From: an uncultured Maribacter sp.
GTDB taxonomy: Bacteria; Bacteroidota; Bacteroidia; Flavobacteriales; Flavobacteriaceae
DNA: 64,000 bases
Direction: 5' to 3'
NCBI RefSeq assembly: GCF_947496775.1
Contig: NZ_CANMDU010000008.1
Coordinates: 62,001 to 126,000, forward strand
Shown: in pieces, positions 22,390 to 64,000 of the stretch
How the letters are laid out: each line of letters opens with the position of its first letter
Numbering within the stretch: the stretch's first letter is position 1
Notes under the pieces: generated by a model
Told to the model about the DNA's origin: nothing
The model's database searches: none
What the model saw: only the letters and a program-made list of their open reading frames with translations
Made by a program: the position numbers and the translations under genes

Positions 22390-23610
22390 CTATGTTAAGT
22401 TGCTATCAAAGCCTAATTGTTGTAAGAGATTATAGACTTCTTTTTCATCCGTATTAATTTGCACAATTTTATCAGGGTCAGTCCCCATAAGTGCCAATTC
22501 TGCTTTTATTGATTTAAAAATAGATGGATTCGTTGTAGCAATTATTAAAAAATCATACTCAGTATTGATAATAGAGCTAGGTGGCTTAACAAAATTGTCC
22601 CCCATATTCAGTTCATGGAAATCAATATCTATCCATTTAACAATTTGAAAAAAATTGCTTTTACTATTAGATGACAAAAGATGACGCCCAAACGAACCCG
22701 AACTATAAACAATAACTTTGGAATTTTTTGTTGCTTTTAAAAAAGGGTTGAAAGTAATATTTCCCGAAACATCATGAATTAAACCTCCAGATCTTACCAA
22801 GATTAAGGAGTAAAGATAATATAGTATCTGTGTATTTAAATTATCCTTATCAAGGAAAGGGCTTAATTTAATTTCTAAAAACTTTTTCAAAACTCCCAAT
22901 CTAGCATATTCTAAACTTAAATTTTTAATCGTTTTTAGGATAGAATCATTTCGTTGCCGATAGTAATAAAGCGGTATTTTACTTATTGTTAGTTTTTTTG
23001 AAATAGTTAAATAAGTATAAGTAATGGCTGCGTCTTCACCCATAACAATCTCATCAGGAACATCAAATAATACTTTATTGAGCAATTCTCTATTGAATAG
23101 TTTACTCCACACATAAGTAGATAATTCGTGTTCACAAAAGACACCATTATACATAGCTTTCGGCAGTATTGAATTTTTAATTTCATGTTCTTCAAAAACA
23201 CCTGTATATGAAGGCTTTACTGTTTCAATTTTTCCGTCGAATTCTCTGAAATGACCAGACACAACAAGATCGGAATCATTAACTTCGGCAAGTTTAAATA
23301 AAATATCGAGATAAAACTTATCAACCCAATCATCCCCATCAATATAAGCAACATACTTACCTTTAGCCTGTTTAAGTCCTGCTTTTCTACCACTCAAAAG
23401 TCCTCCGTGAGTTTTGTGAATTACCTTAATCCGGTTATCTTTAACTGCATATTCATCGCAAATTTGAGGACAATTGTCAGGGCTTTCATTATCGACCAAA
23501 ATCAGCTCAAAGTCTGTAAAAGATTGATCTAAAATACTATCAATACATTTAGAAAGATAGGGTTCTATCTTATATATAGGTACAATAACACTAATACTAA
23601 CATCATTCAT
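22390..23610 (-). CDS. GT2 glycosyltransferase with C-terminal Rossmann-like domain
   Basis: A 406-residue protein in two parts. Residues 1-240 are a GT-A glycosyltransferase of family GT2 with SVIVPIYKIEPYL at the front and the D91-G-D-D metal site. From about 295 a second domain begins with KVIVYSSGSFGRHLL, a glycine-rich nucleotide-binding turn like the N-terminal part of PglD proteins, and continues with alternating strands and helices to the end. The join is in frame with no sign of a frameshift. It is last in the SDR/SMP-30/GT2 unit, 8 bases after the lactonase gene. It probably transfers one sugar of the repeat; the extra domain's role is unknown. Confidence 0.86.
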   Translation of the reverse strand: MNDVSISVIVPIYKIEPYLSKCIDSILDQSFTDFELILVDNESPDNCPQICDEYAVKDNRIKVIHKTHGGLLSGRKAGLKQAKGKYVAYIDGDDWVDKFYLDILFKLAEVNDSDLVVSGHFREFDGKIETVKPSYTGVFEEHEIKNSILPKAMYNGVFCEHELSTYVWSKLFNRELLNKVLFDVPDEIVMGEDAAITYTYLTISKKLTISKIPLYYYRQRNDSILKTIKNLSLEYARLGVLKKFLEIKLSPFLDKDNLNTQILYYLYSLILVRSGGLIHDVSGNITFNPFLKATKNSKVIVYSSGSFGRHLLSSNSKSNFFQIVKWIDIDFHELNMGDNFVKPPSSIINTEYDFLIIATTNPSIFKSIKAELALMGTDPDKIVQINTDEKEVYNLLQQLGFDSNLT

Positions 23611-23618
23611 AATAACAG

Positions 23619-24434
23619 TTAATTTAATTCAACATAAAAAAGCCCCCCCCCATTCATATCATCTTTGGAAGACTTTGCAGTCGTTACATATAGGTTTAAT
23701 TGATTGTCAATACAACACGATGTAACATTTAAACATGGTAATTTTCGCTCATCTATTTTTTTGCCACTTATAGGGTTCCAACGAGATACACAGCCCCCCC
23801 CCCATTCTGCAATCCATAACATTCCCTCCTTATCCATGCACATACCATCTGGACTTCCTTCTCCATTAAACTTTATCACGTAAGACTCAAATAACACTGC
23901 CCCTGTTTTCATATCGTAAGCATATTTAGCCACTTTTTTCGTAGGAGTATCTATAAAATAAAGGCTACAACCGTCTTGCGAAAATGCCAAACCGTTAGAG
24001 ATTGTCGTATCCTTGATTATAACCTTGGATTTTCCTTCTGAATAAGAATAGACCTTTCCTATATTATCCTTGACTTCGGGAAACCCCATTGTTCCAATTA
24101 AAAACCTTCCTTCTGGGTCTTTGATTCCATCGTTATACCTAACGGAATTTGCTATATCTATTTGAAAAGAAAATTGCTTTTGCAATGTATTAAAATCCAC
24201 TTCAAAAAAACCGTTTTTAGAGGCGACCATAACTCTTTTCTTATCCAATAAGAAAATACAACTCACAGGAGAATCTAATTTTACGCTCAAAATCTCCCTA
24301 TTATATGGATTGTAACAAAAAACCAAGCAATCCAATATAGATACAAAATAAAGTAGATTTTCCTTATGATCAAAAACAGGCCCTTCTAAAAGCTCCGAAT
24401 TGAGGTGAAAAATAAGTGATGGATTTGAATTCAT
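23619..24434 (-). CDS. SMP-30/gluconolactonase family protein with two poly-G tracts
   Basis: A 271-residue six-bladed beta-propeller of the SMP-30 (regucalcin/gluconolactonase) family. The metal ligands are visible as E17 (LLEGP), N147 (SNGLAF) and D196 (SPDGMC), and N101-D102 is in the substrate region. Family members hydrolyse sugar lactones to sugar acids. It lacks a signal peptide, so it is cytoplasmic. The gene lies 12 bases after an SDR, a pairing that suits oxidation of an aldose to a lactone and then opening of the ring. Two glycine runs (212-214, 262-264) are each coded by uninterrupted G tracts of 10 and 9 bases, exceptional in this AT-rich DNA; slippage would truncate the protein. 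Confidence 0.87.
   Translation of the reverse strand: MNSNPSLIFHLNSELLEGPVFDHKENLLYFVSILDCLVFCYNPYNREILSVKLDSPVSCIFLLDKKRVMVASKNGFFEVDFNTLQKQFSFQIDIANSVRYNDGIKDPEGRFLIGTMGFPEVKDNIGKVYSYSEGKSKVIIKDTTISNGLAFSQDGCSLYFIDTPTKKVAKYAYDMKTGAVLFESYVIKFNGEGSPDGMCMDKEGMLWIAEWGGGCVSRWNPISGKKIDERKLPCLNVTSCCIDNQLNLYVTTAKSSKDDMNGGGLFYVELN
23643..23651 (-). repeat. Homopolymer tract of 9 G (coding strand)
   Basis: Nine C in a row on the plus strand, nine G in the coding sense, encode Gly262-264 near the end of the SMP-30-like protein. A slip here changes only the last few residues. Confidence 0.9.
23794..23803 (-). repeat. Homopolymer tract of 10 G (coding strand)
   Basis: Ten C in a row on the plus strand, ten G in the coding sense, encode the Gly212-214 turn of the propeller. 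A slip of one base would remove the last fifth of the protein. Confidence 0.9.
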
Positions 24435-24446
24435 GTTAGCATATTA

Positions 24447-25193
24447 TTAAATATAATGTCCTCCAGTAATTCTTAGTACCGAGCCAGTTGTCATAGCCGA
24501 TTCATCAGAAATAAAATACATTATTGCGGGTATTGGGTCATACCTATTCAACAAACGTCCCATAGGAATAACATTACTTGCTTTATTTTTCAATTCTTCT
24601 TCACCAACACCCTCTCCTGCTCTTAATTCAAGTTCTCCTTCAGTATCCGTCCACCCCATAACTACATAATTTGACCGAATTCCATCTTTAGCATAATGAT
24701 GTGCAATATGATTTGACAGAGTATAAAGTGCACTTTTAGTAAGGGCATATGGAGCCCTATCAATATCTCCATAATCCATATGAGGAGACCCAAAGAAAAT
24801 AATTGACCCTAATTTAAATTTAATCATTGATTTTAACACATGTTTTACTAAAAAAAATGCCGCCTTTAAATTAATATTAAAAACACTATCATAAACATCC
24901 TCTTCAGTTTCAATGATAGATGAAACAGGTGTTATTCCCGCATATAAAGCCAATGCATCTATTTTTCCGAATTTTTTTATTGTCTGTATGCAAAAATCTT
25001 CAATTCCCTCTATACTATTTAAATCAATCGTATGAAAATAAAGCTTATCGGCAGATTGTAATGATTGGATTATTTTATTACCTTCATCAAAGTTTCTTCC
25101 GCAAAAAGACACGTTATACCCCTTATCTAAGCAGGATTTTAGTATCTCGTTACCAACGCCCTTGGTCCCTCCTAAAATCATTACTGTCTTCAT
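24447..25193 (-). CDS. SDR oxidoreductase paired with the lactonase
   Basis: A 248-residue classical SDR with GGTKGVG at 8-14, S136, Y149 and K153 all present, and a TTGSVLRITGGHYI end. It is first in the minus-strand unit with the SMP-30-like lactonase and the GT2, behind a well-formed promoter. In such a pair the SDR may oxidise an aldose or nucleotide-sugar at C1 to a lactone; alternatively it reduces a keto sugar. No specific family name is justified. A second SDR of similar type lies at 17.2 kb. Confidence 0.85.
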   Translation of the reverse strand: MKTVMILGGTKGVGNEILKSCLDKGYNVSFCGRNFDEGNKIIQSLQSADKLYFHTIDLNSIEGIEDFCIQTIKKFGKIDALALYAGITPVSSIIETEEDVYDSVFNINLKAAFFLVKHVLKSMIKFKLGSIIFFGSPHMDYGDIDRAPYALTKSALYTLSNHIAHHYAKDGIRSNYVVMGWTDTEGELELRAGEGVGEEELKNKASNVIPMGRLLNRYDPIPAIMYFISDESAMTTGSVLRITGGHYI

Positions 25194-61985: not shown

Positions 61986-64000
61986 TTACCTATATAGAGT
62001 AAAATGCCCTATATATTGGTTCTTGCTTTTATTATTTTCATTAACCTCATACCAATAATCCCCTGTTGGTACTGGTGAACCTTCATAATTACCATCCCAA
62101 TAACTAACATTGTCAAGTATTGCTACAACTCTACCATAGCGGTCATAAATCTTAACTTCTATATCTGGGAAATACTCTCTATTTTTTGGATACCACATAT
62201 CATTATTTCCATCACCATCTGGAGTAAAGAAATTTGGTATATCTAACATTCCAGTAAATTCAAAGGGAACAGATACTATTGCCGCGCACCCGTTTTGATC
62301 CACAACTCTTACTGTTACCAATTCACTTTCATTGGTAGTATAAACTCCGTTTGTACCAAAAGATTCCCCTTGGAAGAAAAATTCATACCCTCCATAGCCA
62401 CCTTCAGCAGTTGCCGTTAATTCATTAGGCGCTGTTTTAATTGCACTTAGTATTAGAGGATCATATGCTTCCATTGTAAAATCTACAATATTTGTACAAC
62501 CGTTTTGATGGTATATATAAACCGTATGGTCTCCTTCAGCCAAATCCCCCCAAACATTCTCCGTCCCTGCTAAAGCAGTTACTGGATCTGTAGGATCTAA
62601 TGGATCTAAGGCGAAAAGCAAATCGGACATTAAACCTTGTTCTTGCATTTCTATAGTAACCGTACTATTAGGAAAAATTCCTTCACAACCATATTCAATA
62701 ATTGGCTCTGCAGTTAAATCTACGCCTATATTGATAGTTACAACTTCCGTTACGGCACACAAATTAACATCTTGAATATACAATGCGTAAGATGCCCCTC
62801 CTTCTAAATTCTGAATTGATGTACCGTCATATGGTGCAAAGACACCGGTTCCTGTTTCATCCACAGGACTTATTTTCTCTAATTTATATTCATAATATGG
62901 AGTCGGATGTACTAATACATCGTTAAATAGGGTTCCTCCTACAATATTAAAAATTAAAGTACCATCATTTGCTCCAATACACAACTCTGGGGTTGTAACT
63001 AGATTTGTTACCTCAAGGACATTAGGCTCCGTAACCGTTATGAAGTCTTTTTCAAAACAACCATTGTCATCCTTAATGAGAATCTCATAATCACCAGCCG
63101 CAAGTTCATCGAAAATATATGCATTCGGAGTTAATGGATCACTAAAAAACTCATCGAAATGTGGACCTATAGCAAATTGTAGCAACCCTTCCCCTCCTGA
63201 TTGCACTTCAACAGTAATAGAACCATCTTCTTCTCCATTACAAGTTACAGGAGTTTCATTTGCCGTAAATAAAATAGGCACAGGTCTTATAATTTCAAAA
63301 GGTCCTTTAATGTCACTACAAGTAGCCCCACTAGTTACAGCAATATAATAATCACTACCTTCAGGAAGCCCTTCAAAAGTACCATCTGGTTGCGGCCCTC
63401 TAAAAACTGTGGCAGATGCTGCGGGAGAAAAAGCGTCAACTGGATCACCTACATACAATATAAACTGGTTATTCCCGACTCCACCATTCACAAAAGATTC
63501 TATTCTTCCATCTAATTCCGATGCACAAGAAATATCATCTATTTGATTCGGTAATATAGTAATACCAGTTGCATCGGTCATGGTAATACCATTAGATCTT
63601 ACAGGTAAACAAGTGTTTAATATATTTTTCTTTCTAACATCAAATTGGTAAGAAATACCTGCATCTCCTAAAATAAGAACAGAAGTCCCTACCATATCGG
63701 TATAAGTCCCTACTGCTACCCCATTTTCTATTTGTAAATATTCATATACAAAGGAAGGTTCTGGGTTTTCTATAGACAAACGCACTTCACCTTGACCTCC
63801 ACAACCAGGCACTTGTGTTTGCACAAGTATCGGCTCAACTGGTGGCGGTGGATCTACGTAATAAGGAGTAGTAACAAATACACATCCAAAACTAGATGAG
63901 ACCTCAATTGCATACCAACCTGCACTAATAAATCCGCCAGTAGCGCCTATAAAAGTAGGTGAATTTTGAAGTCCACTTGCAGAAGCTATATCTGTATTGT
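61986..64000 (-). CDS. Large secreted protein with T9SS type-B sorting domain, 3' part
   Basis: At least 671 residues of a large exported protein; the frame has no stop up to the window end, so its beginning is outside. It consists of repeated Ig/SprB-like modules of about 80-100 residues (patterns such as CNGEEDGSITVEVQSGGEG, GDYEILIKDDNGCFE). The last 75 residues are the gliding-motility-associated (type-B) sorting domain with IPNFFTPDGDGNNDMW, KIYDRYGRVV and SPVPTGDYWYEV. It should be exported by the type IX secretion system and displayed on the surface or released. A GTG at 63824 is inside the gene and is not the real start. Confidence 0.92.
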   Translation of the reverse strand, partial: NTDIASASGLQNSPTFIGATGGFISAGWYAIEVSSSFGCVFVTTPYYVDPPPPVEPILVQTQVPGCGGQGEVRLSIENPEPSFVYEYLQIENGVAVGTYTDMVGTSVLILGDAGISYQFDVRKKNILNTCLPVRSNGITMTDATGITILPNQIDDISCASELDGRIESFVNGGVGNNQFILYVGDPVDAFSPAASATVFRGPQPDGTFEGLPEGSDYYIAVTSGATCSDIKGPFEIIRPVPILFTANETPVTCNGEEDGSITVEVQSGGEGLLQFAIGPHFDEFFSDPLTPNAYIFDELAAGDYEILIKDDNGCFEKDFITVTEPNVLEVTNLVTTPELCIGANDGTLIFNIVGGTLFNDVLVHPTPYYEYKLEKISPVDETGTGVFAPYDGTSIQNLEGGASYALYIQDVNLCAVTEVVTINIGVDLTAEPIIEYGCEGIFPNSTVTIEMQEQGLMSDLLFALDPLDPTDPVTALAGTENVWGDLAEGDHTVYIYHQNGCTNIVDFTMEAYDPLILSAIKTAPNELTATAEGGYGGYEFFFQGESFGTNGVYTTNESELVTVRVVDQNGCAAIVSVPFEFTGMLDIPNFFTPDGDGNNDMWYPKNREYFPDIEVKIYDRYGRVVAILDNVSYWDGNYEGSPVPTGDYWYEVNENNKSKNQYIGHFTLYR

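Follow-up and report, generated by a model that had tools for sequence, protein, structure and literature searches.

Two poly-G tracts in an SMP-30-like gene

The window analyzed here is the whole 64-kb stretch of DNA from position 62001 to position 126000 of contig C8, and it belongs to a draft genome of 3.96 Mb (3,962 kb) in 69 contigs that is 99.8% complete. Base composition of the window is 31.9% G+C. When all 64 kb were scanned for runs of seven or more G or C, only two were found, C9 and C10 on the plus strand. Both lie in one minus-strand gene, where they read as G9 and G10 in the coding sense, exactly as the original prediction had described them. This gene encodes a protein resembling SMP-30, gluconolactonase and LRE (SGL) and stands between genes for a short-chain dehydrogenase (SDR) and a GT2-family glycosyltransferase:

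22390–23610, minus strand: GT2-family glycosyltransferase (PF00535, E = 2e-32), starting 8 bp past the SGL stop
23619–24434, minus strand: SMP-30/gluconolactonase/LRE-like (SGL) beta-propeller protein, 271 aa (Pfam PF08450, E = 8e-59)
23643–23651, minus strand: G9 tract in the coding sense, codons 262–264 (GGG GGG GGG), 97% into the SGL gene
23794–23803, minus strand: G10 tract in the coding sense, codons 211–214 (TGG GGG GGG GGC), 78% into the SGL gene
24447–25193, minus strand: SDR (PF00106, E = 2e-36), first gene of the cassette, separated from the SGL start by 12 bp

Within the 271-aa reading frame, the G10 tract appears as GAA TGG GGG GGG GGC TGT, which encodes E-W-G-G-G-C (residues 210–215), and the G9 tract as ATG AAT GGG GGG GGG CTT, which encodes M-N-G-G-G-L with glycines at 262–264. 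Judged from its sequence, the protein is a member of the SMP-30/gluconolactonase/LRE family (PF08450), the profile match spanning residues 17–254; lactonase activity is predicted only. A structure model is all-beta and propeller-like, with 24 strands and a mean pLDDT of 90.9. Five of these strands sit beyond the G10 tract, and the final one (264–268) begins at the G9 tract. Residues E17, N101, N147 and D196, the metal-site residues expected for this family, all lie upstream of both tracts. The SGL protein aligns with regucalcin (4gnb/3g4e), in which these four residues are matched, and five orthologues show no variation at them. In family and metal-site residues, SGL agrees with regucalcin/SMP-30 and the gluconolactonases (PDB 4gnb, 3g4e, 3dr2); unlike those proteins, SGL is encoded between an SDR and a GT2 gene in a polysaccharide cluster.

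That cluster spans ∼44 kb (C8:51.5–95.9 kb) and begins upstream of the window:

C8:51504–55530, before the window: CpsB/CapC, Wzc-like and Wza-like genes, the start of the cluster
633–32867: surface-polysaccharide cluster, the portion inside the window, assigned from the domain content of its genes

Inside the window, the cluster includes glycosyltransferases, a Wzx-like flippase, a Wzy-type ligase/polymerase, CDP-glucose enzymes and two initiating sugar transferases; the cluster as a whole also has epimerase and aminotransferase genes. The surface-sugar setting that had been proposed for the SGL gene is supported by the domain content of its neighbors. The order SDR-SGL-GT2 recurs at four related loci (Hyunsoonleella flava, Algibacter, Maribacter and a Flavobacteriales metagenome bin), and these named relatives make a flavobacterium the probable source of the DNA. 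The cassette is absent from all seven other genomes of the genus that we examined.

Some further features of the cluster were recorded. A short degenerate NAD-dependent epimerase gene (C8:58902–59438, 179 aa) is apparently a pseudogene. Two other sugar genes, at C8:61383 and C8:64626, were considered as truncated and rejected as such, as both are open upstream and probably have non-ATG starts. No obvious invertible promoter was seen near wzc. Between convergent cpsB/capC-like and wzc-like genes lies a perfect 26-bp palindrome with adjacent arms (L082:12255–12306), probably a bidirectional terminator.

A third coding tract in a wzc-like gene

A search of the entire genome (3.96 Mb) returned 24 runs of exactly seven G, two of eight, one of nine, two of ten and one of twelve; the lengths form no smooth tail. 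Tracts of at least nine G hence number four, two in the SGL gene, one in a wzc-like gene and one outside any coding region:

C8:52324–54699, minus strand: Wzc-like gene, 791 aa, with Wzz, GNVR and autokinase domains
C8:54462–54471 (locus L065): in-frame G10 tract of the wzc-like gene, codons 77–79, found by the genome-wide search
C12:463–474 (locus L011): G12 tract, non-coding, near a contig end and upstream of a threonyl-tRNA synthetase-like gene (named by eye)

The wzc-like product matches PF02706, PF13807 and PF13614, and TIGR01007 above its cut-off; on this domain content, the 791-aa protein is assigned to the Wzc-type polysaccharide co-polymerases/tyrosine autokinases. Its tract lies ∼31 kb from the SGL gene and 7.5 kb before base 1 of the window. 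All three coding tracts of at least nine G in the genome are therefore inside a single polysaccharide cluster of 44 kb. The original prediction had named the occurrence of such tracts elsewhere, in unrelated genes, as a refuting condition; the genome-wide search showed no other coding tract of at least nine G. The two runs of eight G are in a gltP-like symporter gene and, on the antisense strand, in a dnaX-like gene, both named by eye.

The G runs show a strand bias: 19 of the runs of exactly seven are on the minus strand of their contigs versus 5 on the plus strand, and each of the six longer tracts is likewise on the minus strand. This bias probably reflects replication-strand GC skew.

Computed products of slippage

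We computed the proteins that would result if each coding tract were one or two G longer or shorter. For the G10 tract of SGL, slips of ±1 or ±2 cut the protein to 221–228 of 271 aa, which agrees with the earlier expectation of truncation. For the G9 tract, the same slips give products of 267–270 aa in which only the last residues are altered. The idea that the SGL tracts form a switch therefore holds in part: a slip in G10 does truncate the protein, but a slip in G9 changes no more than the C-terminal end, and both tracts come late in the gene. Their positions are those of C-terminal variation rather than ON/OFF switching. Fusion of SGL to GT2 through slippage was considered and rejected, as slips of ±1 and ±2 in G9 soon lead into a stop, a few codons on.

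In wzc, any slip of ±1 or ±2 leaves only 81–84 of 791 aa, which makes this the site where a slip is cleanly OFF. The tract falls within the first 10% of the coding sequence, as is seen in translational phase variation.

Orthologues and codon use

To place the SGL tracts, we compared 17 orthologues of 59–89% identity, comprising the four loci named above and 13 from genomes of the family. The Gly-Gly-Gly motifs are mostly kept, and they are written in mixed codons (GGA GGA GGG, GGA GGC GGA and others). None of the 17 SGL genes has a long G run, the longest being 4 or 5. Because the orthologues retain the glycines with mixed codons and no run beyond 5, the SGL tracts can be traced to synonymous codon choice, and the view that codon choice rather than protein need makes them is upheld. 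A similar picture was seen for wzc: the Wzc relatives inspected, including several of the same genus at 82–85% identity, show at the tract site either glycines in mixed codons or different residues, and none has a G run above 5 there. As far as these sequences allow, the SGL tracts are peculiar to one genome among those compared.

GGG makes up 17% of glycine codons inside the cluster and 12% outside, the latter figure and the other codon statistics outside the cluster resting on a 387 kb sample. About 600 glycine triples, when scaled to the genome, lead to an expectation of ∼1 all-GGG triple. As two are observed, the number of GGG-GGG-GGG triples is unremarkable, and only their location is odd. 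A random site in the genome falls in the 44 kb cluster with a probability of ∼0.01. The wzc tract is the fairer test of location, since it came from a genome-wide search and not from inspection.

Synonymous-codon shuffling of the cluster gave a mean of 0.06 tracts of at least nine G, compared to three observed, and in none of 1000 shuffles were three reached; this over-representation is partly post hoc. When the 387 kb sample was shuffled, the mean was 0.35 and none of 100 shuffles reached three. For the SGL gene itself, two runs of nine or more arose in 0.25% of trials, a post hoc figure, since this gene was picked for having tracts. Relative to codon use, then, the tracts are over-represented in the cluster, in part on post hoc grounds.

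A possible set of contingency tracts

We propose, tentatively and at slightly less than an even chance, that the three tracts are slip-prone mononucleotide repeats that serve one surface-polysaccharide locus as contingency tracts, few in number. Of these, G10 near the start of the wzc-like gene for the export/chain-length kinase would act as the main switch. If it grew or shrank by one or two G, translation would end at residues 81–84 of 791, and polysaccharide export would stop. The SGL tracts would be secondary to wzc: a slip in G10 would take away the end of the propeller, perhaps with less translation of the neighboring GT2 gene, and a slip in G9 would vary the C-terminus only. What the sequences show directly are the tract lengths, reading frames, computed slip products, gene families, co-location and the absence of tracts from orthologues; we infer from the proposal that slippage would occur at a useful rate, be reversible, change the coat and be under selection. 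Phase variation of the SGL locus, as the original prediction had it, survives in the sense that this is a credible poly-G contingency locus, although the better switch is wzc, which lies outside the window. A more specific version, in which ON/OFF switching of wzc is combined with C-terminal variation of the SMP-30-like protein and the two SGL tracts, 150 bp apart, template one another, seems to us unlikely.

The case for wzc as a plausible switch comes from Akkermansia muciniphila, in which slippage at a Wzc-like tract has been reported together with loss of mucin binding. Amuc_1413, a Wzc-like gene, has 9G at codon 55, which became 10G in 4 of 9 sequenced mutants (PMC13055324). The change was found in 87–91% of reads, shortened the protein from 735 to 98 aa and was accompanied by reduced mucin binding; Akkermansia genomes with 8G or 10G at this site also exist (PMC13055324). 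Both genes have a poly-G tract of 9–10 early in a gene for a Wzz/Wzc-type export kinase, and in both a slip of a single base leaves little of the protein (98 of 735 aa in Amuc_1413, 81–84 of 791 aa here). For Amuc_1413, evolved clones and read fractions revealed the shift, which was tied to mucin binding, whereas here we have one genome, in frame. The present organism also belongs to another phylum and, unlike Akkermansia, bears two more tracts within its cluster, in an SMP-30-like gene.

Poly-G systems in other bacteria offer additional parallels. In Campylobacter, poly-G/C tracts of at least 8 switch expression, and lengths of 9 and 10 are the commonest, accounting for 79% of tracts (PMC6321876). 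Like the phase-variable genes catalogued there with PhasomeIt (PMC6321876), the genes described here have poly-G in the coding sense, tract lengths of 9–10 and surface-polysaccharide functions. Campylobacter strains, though, have 5–81 such genes with known length variation, compared to three tracts here, read from one genome. Helicobacter canadensis has a poly-G tract near the 3′ end of a gene, for which the authors describe the effect as C-terminal variation and report variable read lengths (PMC2823697). A slip in the SGL G9 tract would likewise change the C-terminus only, but that tract is known from one assembled sequence.

In the open-access literature that we searched, no case of phase variation or coat switching by poly-G tracts in Flavobacteriaceae was found. 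Should the wzc tract prove to switch, this flavobacterial group, better known for invertible promoters, would gain control of its entire coat by slipped-strand mutation. The tract would also represent an independent repeat of the Akkermansia case, making Wzc a recurrent target of poly-G contingency.

Alternative explanations

Several observations count against contingency tracts. All three coding tracts have the length that keeps the frame open, which speaks against selection. We know of no requirement for an SGL protein in polysaccharide synthesis. The tracts occur in no orthologue inspected, whether among the 17 SGL genes or the wzc relatives, and related genomes have G9 in housekeeping genes. 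These last points are what one would expect if three conserved Gly-Gly-Gly sites had simply reached all-G codons by neutral drift, giving tracts that mutate somewhat faster and have no selected role, an explanation that we rate somewhat short of an even chance. GGG is a fairly common glycine codon both outside and inside the cluster, about one all-GGG triple is expected by chance, and relatives have G9 at glycine triples in katG-, GppA- and SusC-like genes (named by eye from translations), showing that tract length alone is no sign of phase variation. What drift leaves unexplained is the presence of all three coding tracts in one polysaccharide cluster, which none of the 1000 shuffles reproduced, and the excess of runs of 9–10 over runs of 8, although the count is small and its SGL part post hoc. 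Absence of the tract from orthologues is itself compatible with switching, because non-variable homologues in Campylobacter may be without the tract even at >90% similarity (PMC6321876). Taken together, selected phase variation and neutral drift appear about equally likely.

Two other origins carry much less weight. One SGL tract may be a copy of the other, made when microhomology drove a switch of template, and a slip of one base would then have restored the frame. The two sites, 150 bp apart, have the common sequence GAATGGGGGGGGG(G)CT and differ only in how long the G run is, whereas the corresponding orthologue sites differ from each other (GAATGGGGAGGAGGGTGT and GTATGGAGGCGGACTT in L046). 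The match outside the G run, however, comes down to one or two altered bases, and a separate origin would be needed for the tract in wzc; we regard such non-allelic copying as highly improbable. Sequencing or assembly error, with G-rich miscalls turning GGA and GGC codons into GGG, is also very unlikely. The assembly is a draft in 69 contigs, and long tracts in other genomes look artefactual: in one relative, G13 breaks an SRP54/Ffh-like gene (named by eye), normally essential, across frames (locus L183), and G026 has a run of >50 G. But each of the three coding tracts leaves its frame open and encodes exactly as many glycines as the family has there, and there are only four tracts of at least nine G in a genome that is 99.8% complete.

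Long G tracts in related genomes

Tracts of at least 11 G occur in 34 of 397 genomes of the family; some split genes between frames, and others are non-coding. We had considered these long tracts as proof of a family-wide set of variable genes and rejected this, as the survey of the 397 genomes is ambiguous: some of the tracts are likely to be assembly errors. In one relative (G034), G13 at about position 1500 splits an MBOAT/AlgI-like O-acyltransferase gene (named by eye) between two frames (L053/L174), possibly representing the OFF state of a phase-variable acetylase or else an assembly error. Two relatives of one genus (G404 and G245) have unusually many tracts of at least 11 G or C for the family, which may mark a genuine group of variable genes or be a feature of the assemblies. 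In another relative (G013), G11 splits a beta-galactosidase-like glycoside hydrolase gene (named by eye) between frames just before a VNRHEFSP motif (L141).
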